A DNA stretch of 64,000 nucleotides, taken from the NCBI GenBank assembly GCA_024278275.1, contig JAJRTN010000172.1:1-64000 (forward strand). The letters are read 5' to 3'. The stretch comes from Candidatus Hydrogenedentota bacterium. GTDB taxonomy: Bacteria > Hydrogenedentota > Hydrogenedentia > Hydrogenedentales > JAJRTN01. Positions 6,002 through 43,487 of the stretch are shown one piece after another. Under the pieces are notes generated by a model. The model did not search any database. It was not told where the DNA came from and saw nothing but the letters and a program-made list of their open reading frames with translations. The stretch's first letter is position 1. Each line of letters opens with the position of its first letter. The position numbers and the translations under genes are program-made.

Positions 6002-8218
6002 ATGGCGCGAACAGGACATGGAAAGGAAGTGGCGCAAGCCGCGCCCCATTCCTTGGAAGTATTCCATGGCGGAAGGTGGCCGCCAACCCAATACCCTCAT
6101 TCACACGAAAGCAAAGATGACGGCGCGCTGAAGCGCACCCTGCGGGATTGCCCCGAACCAAAGGGTGTTGGTAGGGTCGCGCTCCCGCGCGACCGTTCAC
6201 GCGGGGCGGGTCGCGTCAAGGGGAAGATCCCTTCAGAAGCGCACCCACGCCCGGCCAACGGGCAAGCGGGAGCTTGCCCCTACCAAGAGGGGCGGAATGG
6301 CGCGCTGAAGCGCGCCCTGTGTCGTTTACTGCCCAAGCGGCCGCGGTGCCTATCCATTCCCGGGGGGGGGAGGAAGCAAGCGGCCTTTGAACGTGCGGGA
6401 AACCATGTTTTCGCGGGGCTGGCCGCGGCGCTGGCCCTGCTGGTCTACCTGCTGACCCTGGCGCGGACGGTCACGGGGGAAGACAGCGGGGAACTCATCG
6501 TGGCGGCGTGGAGCCTGGGTATCCCCCACCCCCCCGGCTATCCCCTGTGGTGCCTGTCGGCCCATCCCTTCACCTGGATTCCCCTGGGTGCCGTGGCATG
6601 GCGAGCGGCGTTTTTCTCGGCGGTGTGCGCGGCGGGAACGGTGTACGTTGTGGTGCTGCTGGTACGCGCCCTGGGATGCGGGATAACCGCGGCCTTCACC
6701 GCGGGGCTGGCCCTCGCCTTCTCCCGCGAGTTCTGGGAGCAGGCAGTGATCGCGGAGGTCTACACGCTTAACGCGCTCTGCGTGGCGGCGTCCCTGCTGC
6801 TGCTCTTCACGTGGTACCGGACCCGCGCCGACCGCCACCTTTACGCGCTGGCTGTCCTTTACGGGCTGAGCCTGGGCAATCACGGCACCTTCGTGCTCCT
6901 GGGACCGGTCTTCGCGCTCTTCGTGTTCGTGGCGGATCGTCCGTGGCGCTGGGGACTGTACGCGCGGCTGACGGCCCTGGCCGCCGTGGCGTGCTTCCTG
7001 GTCTACCTCTACCTGCCGCTGCGGTCCATGGCAAACCCGGCCATTGACTGGGGCAATCCCGAAACCCTTTCAAACTGGTGGGACGTGGTGCGACGAAAAC
7101 AATATGCTTTCATGTTCAGCGAACATCCCCGGTCATGGATGCGTTTCGCGGAAGAACTCCGCATCTACGCCCTGTTGTGGACGCGTGAGTTCACGCCCTG
7201 GGTCGGTGCGTTGGGCCTGGCGGGGCTTCTGCTGCTGGTGTACCGCCGGCACTGGCACGGCCTGCTGATGGTCTCCGTGGCCGGGATCGTGGTGGCCGGA
7301 TTCAGCTACATCCAAAACTTTGACGATTCCGTGGAGTGGGTCTGGGTCATGACCGTCTTTGCCATTCCGGCGTACCTGGTTACGGCCGTGGGAATCGGGG
7401 CGGCCCTGGACCGCGTGGGCCGGACGGGCTACGCGCCCGTGCTGCTCCTGGCGGCGATCTGCGTGGCTTCGCCCCTGGTCACCCACTGGCGCCATAACGA
7501 CCGGTCCCACTCCCGCACGGCGGAAGATTACGCGCGCAACATGCTTGCGCCCCTCGCGCCGGACGCCCTGGTCATCACGGAAACCGACACCGCCGCCTTT
7601 GCCGGCCTCTACATGCAGGCGGTGCTGGGACTGCGCCCGGATATCACCCTGGGCCGGATCAATGGCTACCTCGCGCCCGCCGTGCTGGCCAACGCGCCCG
7701 GGGCACTTCGCGAGGCCGTGGGCCCCTTCCCCCGGCGGCGGGACGAGCCGCGCATCTTCGCCTGGCTCCTGGAACACACGGCGCGGCCCGTCTACTTCGA
7801 GCGCCGGCCCCGGCTTCCCGAAGGGGCGCCGAAGATTGGGTGGAAACGGGCGGGCCTGTTGTGGCGCGCCCTGCGCGAAGGCGAGACAGATCCCATCGAC
7901 TACCGGGCGGACTGGACCTGGCATAGCCTGGAGGATGACGTGGCGCGAGGCGATTACACGGCCCGGGCCATTTACTTCTCCCTTCATCTTGGCGAAGCGG
8001 AGGAAGCCCTGCGGCGGGGCGAAGACGTGTGGGCCGACGCCCTGGTCCGGGGGGCGCTGGCCGCCTATGGCCGGGACGTGCGGTCGCTGAACAACGCGGG
8101 AACCCTGTACGCCCGCCACGGCGAGCGAGAAAAGGCAAAGGCCCTCTTTCTGGAGGCCCTGGCGCAGGCGCCCTCCGACGCCACGGCACGAAAGAACCTT
8201 GACCGTTTGTCGCCATGA
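6002..8218 (+). CDS. DUF2723-type polytopic membrane protein with C-terminal TPR-like segment; true start uncertain
   Basis: LTLARTVTGEDSGELIVAAWSLGIPHPPGYPLWCLSAHPF...YLPLRSMANPAIDWGNPETLSNWWDVVRRKQY; recognisable protein starts near 6390; upstream ORF part lies in intergenic repeats. Confidence 0.8.
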   Translation: MARTGHGKEVAQAAPHSLEVFHGGRWPPTQYPHSHESKDDGALKRTLRDCPEPKGVGRVALPRDRSRGAGRVKGKIPSEAHPRPANGQAGACPYQEGRNGALKRALCRLLPKRPRCLSIPGGGRKQAAFERAGNHVFAGLAAALALLVYLLTLARTVTGEDSGELIVAAWSLGIPHPPGYPLWCLSAHPFTWIPLGAVAWRAAFFSAVCAAGTVYVVVLLVRALGCGITAAFTAGLALAFSREFWEQAVIAEVYTLNALCVAASLLLLFTWYRTRADRHLYALAVLYGLSLGNHGTFVLLGPVFALFVFVADRPWRWGLYARLTALAAVACFLVYLYLPLRSMANPAIDWGNPETLSNWWDVVRRKQYAFMFSEHPRSWMRFAEELRIYALLWTREFTPWVGALGLAGLLLLVYRRHWHGLLMVSVAGIVVAGFSYIQNFDDSVEWVWVMTVFAIPAYLVTAVGIGAALDRVGRTGYAPVLLLAAICVASPLVTHWRHNDRSHSRTAEDYARNMLAPLAPDALVITETDTAAFAGLYMQAVLGLRPDITLGRINGYLAPAVLANAPGALREAVGPFPRRRDEPRIFAWLLEHTARPVYFERRPRLPEGAPKIGWKRAGLLWRALREGETDPIDYRADWTWHSLEDDVARGDYTARAIYFSLHLGEAEEALRRGEDVWADALVRGALAAYGRDVRSLNNAGTLYARHGEREKAKALFLEALAQAPSDATARKNLDRLSP
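6169..6290. repeat. Second occurrence, partly inverted, of the 1-292 repeat modules
   Basis: Reverse complement of 6241-6283 matches ggtaggggcaagctcccgcttgcccgttg-ccgggcgtggg of the unit at 1; 6169-6200 resembles the ggtcgcgcgggagcgcgcccctacc half. Confidence 0.75.
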
Positions 8219-8373: not shown

Positions 8374-10566
8374 ATGGCAACCGCCACCACGACAAAGCGC
8401 AAACATCCCTACTTTGCCACGGTACCCGCCCAAGAAATCGTGCCGATCATCAACGGCAACTATGAATCGAGTGTCAGGGGCATCTTTGTCATCGGGGACG
8501 TAACGGGCCTGCCCCTGGTCAAGGTGGCGGCCAACCAGGGGGTCGAGGTCATCGAGAAGATGGCGGCCAGGGGGGCTTTCCGCAACGGCGAGGCATCGGA
8601 ACACCTCGACCTGGTGATCATCGGCGGTGGTCCCGCGGGACTCTCCGCGGCGGTGGAGGCGCAAAAGCGCGACCTCCGGTACGTGGTGCTGGAGCGCGGC
8701 AAGGCCGCGAGCACGGTGCGCGGTTTCCCGCCGGGAAAAATGGTCTACGCCGAACCGCGTTTCCTGAAGAACGAAAGCGCCCTCGACGTGGAAGGCGCTC
8801 ACGAGAAGTCGGCGTTCCTCCGTATGATTGACCGGGTCATCGAGGAGCACGGCCTGAAGATTCGCGAGGGGACCGAAGTCAGCCGCGTCGTCAAGAAGGG
8901 CGAACACCATTTCGCGGTGGAAACGAAGGACGGGAAGACCTTCCCCGCGCGTAACGTGCTGGTGGCCGTGGGACGGCAGGGACAGCCCCGGCTCCTCGAC
9001 GTGCCCGGCGCGGACCGGGCGCACAAGGTGACCTACCGCCTCCACACGCCCGACGATTACCGGGACAAGGACGTGCTCATCGTGGGGGGCGGCAACTCGG
9101 CCATCGAGGCCGCCCTCATGCTCATGGACCACAACCGGGTTACCCTCGCCTATCGGGGAGAAGATTTCTTCCGGGCCAAGGAGGACAACCGCAGGCAACT
9201 TGAAGACGCGGAGCAAGGGGGCAAGCTCATTGTTCTTCGCAAGAGCAAGGTGAAGGCCATCCGGGAAACCGACTTGGATATTGACGTGGACGGCACGGCA
9301 CGGACGTTACCCAACGATAACGTGATTATCCTTATCGGTACGTTGCCGCCGGTGGATTTTCTCCTGGACATGGGCCTTGAACTGGACGGCATCTGGACGA
9401 AGAAGCGGGTGCTGTGGTCCGTCGTGGGGCTTGCCCTGGGGATCTTCGTCTATTTCTTCGCCAAGCATTTCGTTCTCCACCCCGATGCCGTGGACGACGG
9501 ATTCATCCTCATCCCGGGCCTGGCATGGCTTTTCAGGATCATTCCAAACCACTTCAATTTCACCAACCTATACGGGTTTTACTACCTGCTCTATTTCACC
9601 AGTATTGCTGTTTTCGGGATTTACTGGGGGTTCCGCTACAAGCACAAGCTGATCTGGCGGCGTAATCTTTCGGCCATTTTCTTCAACTGGGGTATCTGGT
9701 GGGGCCTGCCCACCTTCCTCGTGGTGTTTATCGGCGCGAACCCCTACACGCCTTTCCTGCAACGCCTTGTCAACGCCTGGCCGCTGAACATGACCGCCTT
9801 CCAGGTGCCCGATCTCACCGGTCCCGGCCATCCGGCCTGGTGGCAAACCTTCGCCATCGTGGGCGTCGTGTGGGCGGTGGTGCTTACCTTCATCGTGCTG
9901 CCCCTCTTCACCCTGCGCTTCGGCAAGATCTATTGCAGTCACGTCTGCTCCTGCGGCGCCCTGGCGGAGACGGTGGGCAACAGCTTCCGTCACCGGGGCC
10001 CGAAGGGGGACGGGCCGCGCAGGCTGGAAAAGGTGGGCTTCGTCTTCATCCTGCTCGCCACGGTGGCCACCATCGCCGACCTGCTGGGCTGGAAAGGCCC
10101 TTTCGGCTGGTACCACGTGGGGGTGGGCACCTTCCTCGCCGGGGCCCTGTCCATCGGCCTCTACCCCTTCCTCGGCCAGCGCATGTGGTGCCGCATGTGG
10201 TGTCCCCTCGCCTTCTGGATGAACTTCTGGGGTCGATGGTCCCGCTTCAGGATTACGCCCGAGAAGGGGAAGTGCATCGACTGCAACGTGTGCAACCAGT
10301 ATTGCCAGATGGGCATTGACATCAAGTCCCGCGCCCTTCAAGGGAAACCGGTCACCCTCGTGGACACACCCTGCGTGGGCTGTGCGGAGTGCGTGGTGCG
10401 CTGCCCCATGGGCATCCTGCACTTGGGCGAACTGCCCGCAGACAATAGAACTGGCGCGAAGACGGGACGGTCCCCCGTTTTTCCCGTGAAAGCCCGGGTA
10501 CGGAAGATTCTCGACATTCCGAAAATGAATGATCTCAGTTTGCATAACCGTGGAGGTGGTCAGTGA
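8374..10566 (+). CDS. TrxR/YpdA-like FAD/NAD(P) flavoprotein fused to membrane polyferredoxin (NapH/NosR/CcoG-like)
   Basis: GIFVIGDVTGLPLVKVAANQG at N-terminus, LDLVIIGGGPAGLSAAVEAQ, DVLIVGGGNSAIEAAL, then TM helices with CSHVCSCG, CRMWCPLAFW, CIDCNVCNQYCQMGI, CVGCAECVVRCPMG. Confidence 0.9.
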   Translation: MATATTTKRKHPYFATVPAQEIVPIINGNYESSVRGIFVIGDVTGLPLVKVAANQGVEVIEKMAARGAFRNGEASEHLDLVIIGGGPAGLSAAVEAQKRDLRYVVLERGKAASTVRGFPPGKMVYAEPRFLKNESALDVEGAHEKSAFLRMIDRVIEEHGLKIREGTEVSRVVKKGEHHFAVETKDGKTFPARNVLVAVGRQGQPRLLDVPGADRAHKVTYRLHTPDDYRDKDVLIVGGGNSAIEAALMLMDHNRVTLAYRGEDFFRAKEDNRRQLEDAEQGGKLIVLRKSKVKAIRETDLDIDVDGTARTLPNDNVIILIGTLPPVDFLLDMGLELDGIWTKKRVLWSVVGLALGIFVYFFAKHFVLHPDAVDDGFILIPGLAWLFRIIPNHFNFTNLYGFYYLLYFTSIAVFGIYWGFRYKHKLIWRRNLSAIFFNWGIWWGLPTFLVVFIGANPYTPFLQRLVNAWPLNMTAFQVPDLTGPGHPAWWQTFAIVGVVWAVVLTFIVLPLFTLRFGKIYCSHVCSCGALAETVGNSFRHRGPKGDGPRRLEKVGFVFILLATVATIADLLGWKGPFGWYHVGVGTFLAGALSIGLYPFLGQRMWCRMWCPLAFWMNFWGRWSRFRITPEKGKCIDCNVCNQYCQMGIDIKSRALQGKPVTLVDTPCVGCAECVVRCPMGILHLGELPADNRTGAKTGRSPVFPVKARVRKILDIPKMNDLSLHNRGGGQ

Positions 10567-11462
10567 TGGCGGCCAGGAAGGACGGAGCGTATTACGGCGG
10601 GCTGTTTTGGGTGAGCCTGGTGGCCTTCGTGGTGCCCCTTTTCGTGGCGGCGGCGGCCTTTCAGGCGGCCAGGGCGCCCTACACCAAGCCCGTGCCCCAT
10701 CCCGACGCCTCGGGCGTGGACAACGCGATCTGGGACTACCTGCTCAAGCAGTACGTGGAGAACGGTCTCATCGATTACGACGGCATGAAGCGCGACCGCC
10801 TCTTCACCACCTACCTCGCGGAATTGGGCCGGGCCCGGCCCGAGGCCCTCGCCACGGATGAGGACCGGCTGGCCCTCCTCTGCAACGCGTACAATGCCTT
10901 CGTGGTCGGCGGGGTAATCAACCACAAGATCACCACGTCCGTGATGGATTTCAAGGGATCGGTTGGCTTTTTCGACCTGAAAGAGCATATCTTTGCCGGG
11001 AAGACCGTGAGCGCCAACGACGTGGAGCACAAGCTCATTCGTCCCGTCTACCAGGAGCCGCGCATTCACATGGCGCTCGTTTGCGCCGCGATCAGTTGCC
11101 CCGCCATCCGGCGCGAGGCCTACACCGGCCCGGACCTTCAGCGCCAACTCGAAGACCAGGCGGTGCGGTTCGCCAACAACCCGGTCCATGTGAGCTACGA
11201 TGCCGCGAAGAACCGGGTTCACCTGAGCAGCATCCTCCAATGGTACGGGGATGACTTCAAAAAGGCGGGGGGCTACCTGGCTTTCCTGGCCCGACGGACC
11301 GAAGACCCCGGCCTCGCCGAGGCCCTGCGCCGCGCGGAGGCCGGGAAGGTGACGGTCGTTTTCGACGATTACGACTGGGCCCTGAACAGCCGGGCCATAC
11401 CGGCCGCGGGAAAGAAAAAACGGAGCACCACCTTTGGCTCCGGTTCCATTCCCAACGAATGA
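10563..11462 (+). CDS. DUF547 domain protein, N-terminal membrane anchor/signal
   Basis: DYLLKQYVENGLIDYDGMKRDR...LALLCNAYNAFVVGGVINHK...HMALVCAAISCPAIRREAYTGPDLQRQLEDQA; 4-bp overlap with upstream gene. Confidence 0.85.
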   Translation: MMAARKDGAYYGGLFWVSLVAFVVPLFVAAAAFQAARAPYTKPVPHPDASGVDNAIWDYLLKQYVENGLIDYDGMKRDRLFTTYLAELGRARPEALATDEDRLALLCNAYNAFVVGGVINHKITTSVMDFKGSVGFFDLKEHIFAGKTVSANDVEHKLIRPVYQEPRIHMALVCAAISCPAIRREAYTGPDLQRQLEDQAVRFANNPVHVSYDAAKNRVHLSSILQWYGDDFKKAGGYLAFLARRTEDPGLAEALRRAEAGKVTVVFDDYDWALNSRAIPAAGKKKRSTTFGSGSIPNE

Positions 11463-38736: not shown

Positions 38737-40851
38737 TTATCGTGTCATCACCTGGTAGCGGGGCCGTGTCCGCCAGTCCGGGGGAAGCCACAGGGTCGGC
38801 CAGAAGGGGATGTGTTCCGCCCCTAGCACTCGGTACACACCGGTGATGCGCCCGTGGTATTCGGGCGGGATGAGGATACCCTGGAAGCGGCTTTCCTCCG
38901 TGTAGTACAGGGGAAAGTAAACCCGGGTATCGCCGCCGGGGGGCGTTCTCACCTGGAAGTCCCGGCTGAAATCGTAGTGTTCGGCATCGTCGGCCGTGAA
39001 GGCGAAACGGACCGGGACAGGCGCGCCCGGCCCGTGCAAGGCCACCACGAGATATTCCGACTGGGTGGGCAGACCGGCCTGTTGGGGCGGCAGGTTGTCC
39101 AGCGATGCGAATCCGGGCACCGTGATGAGGCCGTCGGCCCGGCCCGAGGTTTTCCAGGGCAGGGGCTCCAGGGTTGCCGTGCCGCATTGCTCCAGAAGCG
39201 CACCCAAGGTGTAATGCTGTCGCCAGCGCATCCCCCAGAGCAGCAGGGTCAACACCAGGGCCGACACGAGGGCCACGGTGGCCACGCGCAACAGGAGCCG
39301 CCGTCCCCCGGGCCACCAGCGCAGGAACGCGGCGCGCGTCTCGCCGCCGCGCAGAATCCGTGTCCCGGTGACGAGTTGCTGCACCAGGAAGCCCGTGGCC
39401 CAGAGGGACATGAACTCGAGATAGAACACGTGGCGGAGGTTGTATTGCAGGGCGGTGTAGCCGGCGAAGTAGAGGAGGAGGAAGAGGGCGCCGAAGGCCC
39501 ATCGGACGCGGCGGCAGGCGATGAGCGCCAGGGCGAGGACAACATGGTAGCGGCCCTGGCCGGGGAGGTGGTCGAAAAGCAATGCGCGAATCGTGTAGAG
39601 GTGCTGTAGCAGCGGGTTGGTGATGTTCCGGGGCCAGGGCGCGGCGGGATTGATGCGCAGTTCGTCCAACACGCGGAGCACGGCGGCGTAGGCCCGCAGC
39701 ACCAGGTCGCCGGGAACGAGAAACCCGTAGTCGCGCAGGAAGGCCTGGGTGGCCTCGTGGTAGCGCGGGTCCCAATGGGTGGACGGCGGCATGGGCAGGC
39801 CCGCCCGGTGGATGTAGGTCTGCACCATGTTGACGATGTAGAAATCGGAGTAGGGCCCGCCCACCTGGTAGAGGTCCGAAGCAACCCCGAGGCGGAGATC
39901 GCAGTAGTGTAAAAAACCCAGCAGCGTCACGTGGGCGAAGTGGCCGGTCTCCCGGAACAGCTCGACGAGGATGGGATAGCCCGCCACCAGGAAGCCCAGA
40001 AGGAAGACCATGCACGCCGCGATGCGCCAGGGAAGGGTGCGGAAAAACGGACCGGGCAGCAGGAAGAGCACCACGGTGAGAAACGCGGGCGCCGCGATGG
40101 CCAGGTCGGCGCGGAACCCCAGGCCCACACCGATGACCACGCCGCAGAGCAGCGCCGCGCCGAGAAGGGCCATGGGCCGGACGTGCCGCCTGATGAGGCA
40201 GCCCATGAGCAGCAGGGCCAGCAGGAGAAAGGGCGCCTTGGCGTAGTCCCGGATGTGGGGCGCCATTTGCAGGTGGAGGGGGGATACCAGGAAAAGCACG
40301 GCGCAGAGGGTGGACATGACCCGCCCCATGCCCAGGCGAAACAGGCCGTATGCCGCGACCACCGAGGTCCCGTAGAGAAGCCCCACCAGGGGCCCCAGGG
40401 CCGACCAGCACACGCCGAAAAGGCACCAAAGGGCCGTTACCGAAAAAACCAGGTAGAGGTGGTAGCGCTGCCATGGCAGGAAGCCGAAAAAGAACATCTG
40501 CGGGTTGTAGACGCCGATTTCCTCGACGGTCATGCCGCTTGTGTCACGGGGAAGGACGCGCACGTCGTCGGGGATGGCCCCACAATCGAAACAGTCCGTC
40601 TCGCTGTCGAGAAAGGCCTGGAGTCCGGGTACGTCGGAGACCATGGGATTTTCCCAGCCGTGGCCGCAGCTCCACATGATGCCCTGCATGAAGGTGACGT
40701 TCTGCCAGAACTGGGGCAGGCCGCCCCAGGTGGCGTTGTAGACCATGGCGGCACAGGCCCCCGTCACGAACAGGGCCGCCGCGATGCGGAGGTCCCACCG
40801 GCGGGGGCGCGTCTTCCCTTCGGGGCGGGTGTTTTCCAGCCCCTCCTTCAT
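38737..40851 (-). CDS. Polytopic membrane protein of unknown function
   Basis: 704 aa with many hydrophobic segments; ATGA overlap with upstream gene. Confidence 0.7.
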   Translation of the reverse strand: MKEGLENTRPEGKTRPRRWDLRIAAALFVTGACAAMVYNATWGGLPQFWQNVTFMQGIMWSCGHGWENPMVSDVPGLQAFLDSETDCFDCGAIPDDVRVLPRDTSGMTVEEIGVYNPQMFFFGFLPWQRYHLYLVFSVTALWCLFGVCWSALGPLVGLLYGTSVVAAYGLFRLGMGRVMSTLCAVLFLVSPLHLQMAPHIRDYAKAPFLLLALLLMGCLIRRHVRPMALLGAALLCGVVIGVGLGFRADLAIAAPAFLTVVLFLLPGPFFRTLPWRIAACMVFLLGFLVAGYPILVELFRETGHFAHVTLLGFLHYCDLRLGVASDLYQVGGPYSDFYIVNMVQTYIHRAGLPMPPSTHWDPRYHEATQAFLRDYGFLVPGDLVLRAYAAVLRVLDELRINPAAPWPRNITNPLLQHLYTIRALLFDHLPGQGRYHVVLALALIACRRVRWAFGALFLLLYFAGYTALQYNLRHVFYLEFMSLWATGFLVQQLVTGTRILRGGETRAAFLRWWPGGRRLLLRVATVALVSALVLTLLLWGMRWRQHYTLGALLEQCGTATLEPLPWKTSGRADGLITVPGFASLDNLPPQQAGLPTQSEYLVVALHGPGAPVPVRFAFTADDAEHYDFSRDFQVRTPPGGDTRVYFPLYYTEESRFQGILIPPEYHGRITGVYRVLGAEHIPFWPTLWLPPDWRTRPRYQVMTR

Positions 40852-43487
40852 GGCGCGGGTGCCTTGCGGTTCCAGTTGTACGTGGGCACGAGACGCATTT
40901 CATTTTGCGCACGGATGAGTTTTTCCCGGTACGCGGGATTCGCCGGCTCCAGTTGATAGGCCCGCTGATAGGGTGCGCACGCATCTTCCGCGCGGCCCTG
41001 CCGCATAAGGGCATCGCCCCACAGGGCATAGGACACGGCGCGCCAGGGCGCGCACGCGGCCGCTTCCTCGAACAGGCCTTCGGCCGCCTCGAATTGTCCG
41101 CGCTTGAACAAGGTCTCGCCGAATTCCTCGCGCACTTCGGGATTCAGCGGAAGAATCTCCATGACCCGGCGATAGTCCTTATCGGCCATGTTCCAAATGC
41201 GGGTGTCGCGGTAGCGGCGTGCCTCTCCAAGCAACGCGAGGCCCAGGCGTTCCGTTTCCTCGTACCGTTGGTTTTCATAATCCGCCCCCACCCGGGAGAG
41301 CAGGTTATCCACCGGCGCGTAGTTATCCTCCAACAGGCACGGCCCGCTTCGCGCCACGAGTTGATCTATCTCTTTTTCACGGAGAACTTCGCCGGGGAAA
41401 GAAGGGTGGACGCTCCGGATTCGCCCTGCCAGGTCGTCCAGGTCGAGAGGCCGCTTCGCGCAGATAATGATGATGGTGTCCCGCTGGCCCGCGTTCCGGG
41501 GCCGCGTGGTGCAGGCGTAAACGTTGGCGAAAACCTGCCGGCACGTATACATGATCGCGCCGGTAAAGCGGCCCGTGTCGAAGCGATCCGTCGTGTTCAA
41601 CAGGTAAAGCCCATTGTCGTTGAGCAGATCGTGGACCTTTCTCGTGAACTCCACGGTGGTCAATTGAAAGGGTACGCTGATGCGGTTGATGGAATCACCG
41701 ATGACGTAGTCGAAGGTCCCTGCCCGGTCACGCAGCAGATCCTCCATCAGGTTGCGTCCGTCCAGGTCATGGGCCTGAATGGTACTGTCCGGTGGAAAAT
41801 CGAAGAAGTCCCGTGCCGCCCGGGTCACCGCCGGATCGATCTCCGCCACCTCGATCCGGCTCCCCGGCCGTGCCACCTCGACGTAACGGGGGAACACGTA
41901 GCCGCCGCCGCCGATCATCAACATGCTTGTCGGCATCGGCGCGGGATGTGCCAGGGCCATGACGCCTTCGTAGATCCACCAGAAGCGGAAACGCAGGTCG
42001 AGGGGATCGTCGAGATTGGCCTCCGTGTGAACCAGGTTGTCCAGGGCCAACTCACGCAACCGTTTGCCGCCCGATTGGTCCCGCACGCCAAGCCAGGAAT
42101 ACTGGGTATGATCCGCGTGGATGAACGGGCTCGGGTCGGCCCCCGGTAGTTCCAGGGCGTTGCGGAGGGGGGCCGCCAGGGGCGACGGCATGACCGCGCC
42201 CGTCGTGAGCAACAGGGTGAGGGTGAAGGCGCACCACGCCAGGCGGCTGCGCCGTCCGTGAAGCACCGCGCAGGCGGTCAGCACCAGGCAGAGCGCCAAC
42301 AGGGCGCCCGAAGGCCAGAGCCAATCCACGAGCCAATAGCCGGTAAGGAACGTCCCCGCCACGCTGCCGACGGCGCCGAAGGCGTAGACCGCCCCCAGGG
42401 CACGCCCGGCCTCGGGGTTGCGCGCCAGCGCCCACTTCGCCACGGCGGGCCCGATCATCCCCAACAGGAGGGAAGGAAGGAAGAAAGCGCCGAAGGTGTG
42501 CAGCACGAGGCGCGTCACCCGGTGCAGGCCCGTGGGGCGAAGCAGGAACAGAAGCTGTTCGTGGGTCCAGAGCGTGCCCAGGCATGCCGCGGCGGCCAGC
42601 ACGAAAAGCATGGACAGCAGGCGGGACGGCGGGGTCTGATCCGCGGCACGCCCCCCCAGGTAGTTGCCCGCCGTGATACCGGCCAGGACGATGCCCAGGA
42701 TGGCGGTCCACGTGTGCAGACCATGGCCGAATTCCCGGGTCACCATGCGTGAACCCGCCAGTTCCAGCACCATGAACGCCGCGTTCGACACGAAGACCGT
42801 GGCGCCCGGCAGGAACCAGTCCCGCATCCGCGCACGTTGCGCGGTCCCCGTGGGGCGCGACCGTATTGAATCACGGGACCCGAAAAACCAGGCCAGGCCC
42901 AGCATTCCCATGGCGCCCGCCAGGGCACCCACGATGGTGGTGGTGCGCCACCACGCCACCAACACGAAGCCCGTCAGAAAGACCCCGCCAATGCTGCCGG
43001 CCGCCGCCGCCGCGTAGATGCGGCCCACGGTGCGCCCGGCCCCGGCCCCGGCATCCAGGGCACGCCGCGCGGCGACGGGATTGATGGTGCCCAGGAAGGC
43101 GGCGGGCAGGAAAAAGGTGACCATCATGTGCGCCGCGATGCGCGCGGGCCACGAAAGGGCGGCGAGGCCCAAGTCTTCCCCGGCCAGCCGGTTCAGCAAC
43201 AGAATGGCCACAATGGCCAGGGCGGCAAGGAAAAACAACCAACCCATCAGCCGTGGCGAGGGAAAACGGTCCGCGAGGCGTCCCCCCGCCCAATGCCCCA
43301 GCGACATGCCGCCGAGAATGACCCCGATAATCGCGGTCCACGTGTAGAGGGATTGCCCCAGGTACCGCGCCACCAGCGCGCCCGCCACCAACTCCAGCGC
43401 CATGATCGCCCCGTTCGCCAGGAAGACGGTGAGCACGAGGGGCGCGGTCATGGCCCGGACCGGCAAAAGGCGCGTCTCACGGGTCAT
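40848..43487 (-). CDS. Fused multi-TM transporter-like / spermidine synthase-like protein with C-terminal TPR
   Basis: VLTVFLANGAIMALELVAGALVARYLGQSLYTWTAIIGVILGGMSLGHWAGGRLAD; SMLMIGGGGYVFPRYVEVARPGSRIEVAEIDPAVTRAARDFF. Confidence 0.88.
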   Translation of the reverse strand: MTRETRLLPVRAMTAPLVLTVFLANGAIMALELVAGALVARYLGQSLYTWTAIIGVILGGMSLGHWAGGRLADRFPSPRLMGWLFFLAALAIVAILLLNRLAGEDLGLAALSWPARIAAHMMVTFFLPAAFLGTINPVAARRALDAGAGAGRTVGRIYAAAAAGSIGGVFLTGFVLVAWWRTTTIVGALAGAMGMLGLAWFFGSRDSIRSRPTGTAQRARMRDWFLPGATVFVSNAAFMVLELAGSRMVTREFGHGLHTWTAILGIVLAGITAGNYLGGRAADQTPPSRLLSMLFVLAAAACLGTLWTHEQLLFLLRPTGLHRVTRLVLHTFGAFFLPSLLLGMIGPAVAKWALARNPEAGRALGAVYAFGAVGSVAGTFLTGYWLVDWLWPSGALLALCLVLTACAVLHGRRSRLAWCAFTLTLLLTTGAVMPSPLAAPLRNALELPGADPSPFIHADHTQYSWLGVRDQSGGKRLRELALDNLVHTEANLDDPLDLRFRFWWIYEGVMALAHPAPMPTSMLMIGGGGYVFPRYVEVARPGSRIEVAEIDPAVTRAARDFFDFPPDSTIQAHDLDGRNLMEDLLRDRAGTFDYVIGDSINRISVPFQLTTVEFTRKVHDLLNDNGLYLLNTTDRFDTGRFTGAIMYTCRQVFANVYACTTRPRNAGQRDTIIIICAKRPLDLDDLAGRIRSVHPSFPGEVLREKEIDQLVARSGPCLLEDNYAPVDNLLSRVGADYENQRYEETERLGLALLGEARRYRDTRIWNMADKDYRRVMEILPLNPEVREEFGETLFKRGQFEAAEGLFEEAAACAPWRAVSYALWGDALMRQGRAEDACAPYQRAYQLEPANPAYREKLIRAQNEMRLVPTYNWNRKAPAP

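Follow-up and report, generated by a model that had tools for sequence, protein, structure and literature searches.

The protein encoded at 8374-10566 of the window (the whole 64-kb stretch of Hydrogenedentota DNA that was analysed) carries a circularly permuted YpdA/TrxR-type FAD domain, confirmed at the level of sequence, in one polypeptide with a membrane polyferredoxin. The fusion is probably a membrane-bound NAD(P)H-dependent electron-transfer flavoprotein, in which the permuted FAD domain would feed the polyferredoxin. Its gene starts with ATG at 8374, with AGGGGAG upstream, and both the start site and the N-terminus are kept in relatives of the same taxonomic order. No Rfam match was found within the window. 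The features of the locus are the following.

8374..10566, forward strand: whole gene, permuted YpdA/TrxR-like flavoprotein plus membrane polyferredoxin (730 aa; colinear relatives in the same order)
8443..8568, forward strand: relocated C-terminal FAD-domain 'GD' segment, aa 24-65 (hhalign, BLASTP, pLDDT)
8569..8604, forward strand: linker from the old C-terminus to the old N-terminus, aa 66-77, variable in length and sequence (entropy, length spread)
8605..9387, forward strand: first part of the FAD domain and NAD(P) domain, aa 78-338 (Pyr_redox_3, pLDDT, Foldseek)
8617..8640, forward strand: first dinucleotide motif IIGGGPAG, aa 82-89 (alignment with 7a7b)
9073..9108, forward strand: second dinucleotide motif LIVGGGNSAIEA, aa 234-245 (G238-G240, A243 and E245 invariant in 57 sequences)
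9400..10200, forward strand: membrane helices, aa 343-609, about six in the AlphaFold2 model
9934..9954, forward strand: first membrane Cys motif C521-x3-C525-x-C527 (invariant in 10/10 polyferredoxin-type rows; Fer4_5)
10189..10206, forward strand: second membrane Cys motif C606-x3-C610-P611 (invariant in 10/10 polyferredoxin-type rows)
10273..10305, forward strand: [4Fe-4S] motif 1, C634 C637 C640 C644 (invariant in 10/10 polyferredoxin-type rows)
10372..10404, forward strand: [4Fe-4S] motif 2, C667 C670 C673 C677 (invariant in 10/10 polyferredoxin-type rows)
10566..11462, forward strand: DUF547 protein with N-terminal membrane anchor (PF04784, 6e-22)

The first-pass annotation had described a GD segment lying ahead of the first dinucleotide fold, followed by the second dinucleotide motif and by FLLDMGLELDG running into a polyferredoxin with CxxC-type clusters. 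All of these motifs were located: the GD segment (aa 24-65, including GIFVIGDVTGLPLVKVAANQGVEVIEKMA at aa 36-64) precedes the first dinucleotide motif (surrounded by LVIIGGGPAGLSAA, aa 80-93), the second lies within DVLIVGGGNSAIEA (aa 233-246), FLLDMGLELDG occupies aa 329-339 and the clusters follow at aa 521-527, 606-610, 634-644 and 667-677. Pyr_redox_3 (PF13738) matches aa 81-337 above cut-off (E 1.9e-42), with Fer4_5 and Fer4_21 matches C-terminal to it.

Using hhalign, we compared a profile of 57 permuted sequences with one of canonical paralogues; one such ordinary, canonical-order paralogue (L002) resides in the same genome as the fusion. The main block places aa 75-345 on canonical positions 20-295 (E 3.7e-55), and a second, abutting block, which holds the GD segment, places aa 24-75 on canonical positions 294-350 (E 2e-11). 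As the swapped blocks tile the whole canonical chain, the rearrangement is an exact circular permutation. BLASTP against the non-permuted protein L089 from a Pseudomonadota genome gave the same picture, with aa 74-325 aligned to 17-273 (E 9e-41) and, as the swapped second block, aa 17-61 aligned to 287-331 (E 8e-9). The flavin core of the fusion stops at about aa 338, where a canonical YpdA/TrxR protein has about 55 residues more; correspondingly, the Pyr_redox_3 match ends at profile position 281 of 305 and reaches 305 in L089. No GD segment is present C-terminal to the flavin core; it is found at the N-terminus instead. The linker behind it is more variable than the GD segment itself (entropy of 3.1 versus 1.6 bits), and the distance from G56 to D79 ranges from 17 to 35 residues.

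An AlphaFold2 model built on the 57-row alignment folds the N-terminal segment with high confidence, compatible with packing in the canonical place within the FAD domain, with pLDDT of 87-96 at aa 21-70 and mostly 83-98 over the remaining flavin core (lowest block 71). Foldseek retrieved YpdA (7a7b, E 3.8e-19) with 267 alignment columns against a 323-residue target; it could not score the moved segment because its alignment follows sequence order. The earlier designation 'TrxR-like' holds for the fold, but the nearest canonical relative is YpdA/Bdr and not TrxR proper; the nearest solved structures are likewise YpdA/Bdr proteins, aligned over aa 78-338 only. In the open-access literature, no description of a permuted TrxR/YpdA was found.

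A scan of 85,462 species genomes yielded 80 named loci, in 78 of which the match runs continuously through the GD motif into the core in the permuted order; the other two are L081, which is masked at the GD motif, and L089, which is not permuted. These loci span more than a dozen bacterial phyla (Bacteroidota, Acidobacteriota, Planctomycetota, Myxococcota, Pseudomonadota, Calditrichota, Gemmatimonadota, Ignavibacteriota, Nitrospinota, Nitrospirota, Verrucomicrobiota and candidate phyla) and include Emticicia aquatica CECT 8858 and the complete chromosome of Planctomycetes bacterium Poly30; the protein also occurs in plasmid records of Emticicia oligotrophica and Pseudoalteromonas. The permuted FAD domain proposed at first reading is thus borne out both by two swapped, abutting profile blocks and by the same order across phyla. 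In public records these proteins are named only 'NAD(P)-binding domain-containing protein'.

Judged by these homologues, the window protein is no isolated oddity but represents one of the three architectures in a broad permuted family. Type i consists of a membrane helix, two [4Fe-4S] motifs, the GD segment and the FAD/NAD(P) core, and then ends (~450 aa); type ii adds a membrane domain of about 300 residues; type iii, to which the window protein belongs, has the order GD, FAD/NAD(P), membrane polyferredoxin. The ferredoxin-first permuted proteins mostly end 5-34 residues past the core, again without a C-terminal GD segment. In three loci (L006, L007 and L009, from genomes G020, G034 and G037), ~90 extra residues containing predicted membrane helices separate the first helix from the remaining polyferredoxin; the window protein lacks this insertion.

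In a tree of 94 sequences, type iii and type ii each form a single group (support 89/81 and 100/100, respectively), and the non-permuted cyclic-nucleotide/ferredoxin proteins (L089 and Sphingobium) join type iii on a long branch (99/97). A constraint uniting all permuted rows costs only 0.3 log units and is not rejected (p-AU 0.50), so that, despite this placement, the tree is compatible with single as well as repeated permutation: one event, two, or one with a reversal are possible.

The cofactors can be predicted from the motifs. Two Rossmann motifs together with the FAD-NAD(P) domain sequence, the hallmark of the Pyr_redox_3 fold, are present, and the fusion would accordingly bind NAD(P)H and FAD. 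All 57 permuted sequences keep R261 and R267, which lie at the position of the TrxR motif that binds the phosphate of NADPH and hint at NADPH as the predicted donor. Type iii proteins share 13 invariant cysteines: 521, 525, 527, 606, 610 and two CxxCxxCxxxC sets (634-644 and 667-677), and the cluster motifs would be occupied by [4Fe-4S] centres. Two CX3C-type and two [4Fe-4S] motifs after membrane helices are the hallmark of NapH/MauN, and by these motifs the polyferredoxin is of that kind.

The flavin core looks quite different in this respect. No cysteine occurs in aa 1-345 of the window protein and none is conserved in the core across the permuted family; the CxxC redox disulphide of the thioredoxin reductase (TIGR01292) NADPH domain is absent from the window protein, and in the alignment with 7a7b the position of the YpdA catalytic Cys14 (GGGPCG) is taken by Ala88 (GGGPAG). 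The activity of YpdA depends on this residue, and C14A abolishes it (PMC6591457). A thiol-disulphide enzyme is therefore unlikely, which makes transfer from FAD to Fe-S the natural reading.

The membrane part is modelled with helices at aa 343-367, 399-421, 425-453, 488-516, 546-570 and 591-609 (pLDDT about 52-83), and no solved structure was found to resemble it beyond its clusters. Six helices would put the flavin core, the ferredoxin clusters and the Cys motifs on the cytoplasmic side, where the clusters of NapH also lie (PMC5449189).

Our best reading of this anatomy, which the missing redox disulphide also fits, is electron transfer from NAD(P)H via FAD and [4Fe-4S] to the membrane within one polypeptide. 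With the last strand-helix unit and its GD motif moved to the N-terminus, the freed C-terminus, just past the NAD(P) domain, leads straight into the NapH-like polyferredoxin. FAD would be reduced by NAD(P)H and pass electrons singly to the pair of cytoplasmic [4Fe-4S] clusters; from there they would move on to the CX3C sites in the membrane part, and these sites may hand them to quinone or to a partner. In the order, the likely partner would be the adjoining membrane-anchored DUF547 protein, encoded as part of a module that arsenosugar-type (ArsS/GT87/TIGR04282) clusters also contain.

Electrons might also flow in reverse, with quinol or another donor reducing the polyferredoxin and the flavin in turn making NAD(P)H or reducing another substrate. 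Two-way operation has a precedent in the TrxR-type FNRs, which function in both directions. A quinol-oxidising role has, moreover, been proposed for the helices of NapH-type modules (PMC5928378). We nevertheless regard this direction as unlikely, as the step from quinol to NAD(P)+ is uphill unless a coupling device drives it, and the neighbourhood showed no ion-pump subunit.

The DUF547 start codon overlaps the stop of the fusion (TGATG), and the two genes adjoin in all five loci of the order that are readable on that side (the window, L116, L117, L118 and L119); outside the order, no polyferredoxin-type member was seen with DUF547 next to it. A VTT/TVP38 gene follows the pair in L116 and L118. 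The L117 pair stands at the head of a gene cluster that further encodes an ArsM-ArsS fusion (413 bits to TIGR04167, cut-off 300), a glycosyltransferase resembling GT87 and a fusion of GT2 with TIGR04282 (201 bits against a cut-off of 134). In that cluster (L117:1514-10095, genome G054) ArsM and ArsS form one 715-aa protein, and a divergent rhodanese is also encoded. ArsS clusters that contain DUF547, VTT or both but lack the permuted fusion occur elsewhere in the order; in two of them (L146 and L147) a MerA-like FAD oxidoreductase is encoded nearby (734 and 748 bits against a cut-off of 620), which suggests that the fusion may stand in for the MerA-like enzyme. In the same two clusters (genomes G029 and G007) one protein matches both the VTT and the DUF547 queries, and the MerA-like enzyme belongs to the PRK06370 family. 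In Pseudoalteromonas sp. Bsw20308 the type iii gene is located among GT87, GT2, TIGR04282-like and TIGR04283-like genes.

These neighbourhoods offer a lead, drawn from one cluster of the order and the Pseudoalteromonas glycosyltransferase cluster, that the fusion may perform a redox step in a glycolipid or sugar pathway related to arsenosugar synthesis. The window's own genome has no ArsS, so that arsenosugar synthesis itself is unsupported for this organism, and its TIGR04282 gene sits elsewhere. Among 68 genomes of the order, TIGR04282 is present in 6/7 with the fusion versus 14/61 without it; we give this association little weight because the window's own lineage and family f11 together supply five of those six genomes, and TIGR04282 occurs without the fusion in two genomes of f11. 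The open-access literature yielded no description of DUF547 in arsenosugar clusters. Two further genes of the window were noted: a TMEM260-like O-mannosyltransferase with C-terminal TPR (6002-8218), just upstream of the fusion and not kept in relatives, and, by eye, an MFS/spermidine-synthase-like fused membrane protein (40851-43451), the family of which also occurs near the Pseudoalteromonas homologue (L114:18857).

The MerA-like enzymes found in the same place in relatives' clusters, the cysteines of the DUF547 partner and the YpdA/Bdr identity of the nearest solved structures would all suit a membrane-tethered YpdA/TrxR-like disulphide reductase that, like the ferredoxin-thioredoxin reductases, draws on Fe-S as donor and acts on a partner thiol. 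Such an enzyme is distinctly improbable, given the cysteine-free flavin core of the window protein, the lack of conserved cysteines there in the family and Ala88 in place of the residue on which YpdA depends (C14A, PMC6591457). The window does come from a draft assembly of 200 contigs, but there is next to no chance that misassembly, gene fusion or a wrong start produced the GD segment at the N-terminus as an artefact and that the FAD domain is merely truncated, a case that the first-pass annotation had named against itself: the order recurs in 78 of 80 independent named loci, among them the complete Poly30 chromosome, the Emticicia oligotrophica and Pseudoalteromonas plasmid records carry the segment too, and its conservation exceeds that of the linker, which refutes such readings and marks the N-terminus as genuine.

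The homologue search also uncovered redox neighbours in the other two architectures. Multihaem cytochromes often lie beside type i/ii genes (55 loci), as does a second family of secreted proteins that appear barrel-like by eye (34 loci); on Emticicia oligotrophica plasmid pEMTOL02 (L113), ccsA and two genes of the cytochrome c3 family belong to the annotated operon. Ferredoxin-first operons (L023-L102, e.g., L045:5599-12926) contain cytochrome c7/c3-like multihaem proteins, the barrel-like secreted protein and ccsA. In Bacteroidota and others, these operons possibly encode a route from NAD(P)H to periplasmic cytochromes.

The TrxR/YpdA low-molecular-weight fold is among the best-studied flavoprotein folds, and a natural, widely kept circular permutation shows that it tolerates a new topology. 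The new termini sit beside ferredoxin, membrane and cytochrome partners, which gives a handle on why the permutation arose. The annotation of a large family of 'NAD(P)-binding domain-containing proteins' is corrected, and in Bacteroidota, Acidobacteriota, Planctomycetota and others a candidate route emerges that links NAD(P)H with electron carriers of the membrane and periplasm. We tentatively propose, as a speculative generalisation, that the permuted TrxR/YpdA superfamily of more than a dozen phyla might comprise NAD(P)H-to-membrane electron entry modules, one branch feeding periplasmic multihaem cytochromes and the polyferredoxin branch driving an extracytoplasmic DUF547/VTT glycolipid or arsenosugar redox step, and that permutation might have freed the C-terminus for direct joining to a membrane relay.

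Among known systems, the best NCBIfam scores of the fusion are to TIGR04018 (YpdA bacillithiol disulphide reductase; 146.1 bits, below the curated cut-off of 339.9) and, in the C-terminal half, to TIGR02163 (NapH/MauN; 42.8 bits, E 4e-11, below the curated cut-off of 213). With YpdA/Bdr (PDB 7a7b, 7a76) it shares the FAD and NAD(P) domains at about 29% identity over aa 78-338, but its FAD halves are permuted, Cys14 is replaced by Ala and a membrane polyferredoxin is attached. The non-permuted FAD-cNMP-ferredoxin proteins (L089; Sphingobium pMSHV, L115) also carry ferredoxin clusters in the same chain and resemble it in the core (38% identity) and GD segment (49%), whereas they have the canonical order, cyclic-nucleotide-binding domains and no membrane part seen. 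Their domains were called on L089 (3343-5850), which is arranged as FAD/NAD(P) core, GD in the usual place, cyclic-nucleotide-binding domains and ferredoxin motifs; in Sphingobium herbicidovorans pMSHV (L115) a cytochrome c3 family gene lies nearby. The TrxR-type ferredoxin/flavodoxin-NADP+ reductases (PDB 3ab1, 6gar) have a TrxR fold without the disulphide and trade electrons with Fe-S carriers, as proposed here, while the fusion is permuted and its carrier is membrane-bound in the same chain. The membrane ferredoxins NapH/MauN and NosR have the same two CX3C-type and two [4Fe-4S] motifs; the polyferredoxin of the fusion is joined to a TrxR-like FAD/NAD(P) module, whereas NosR carries FMN. 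Each domain of the fusion is already known, and what is new is their order and combination.
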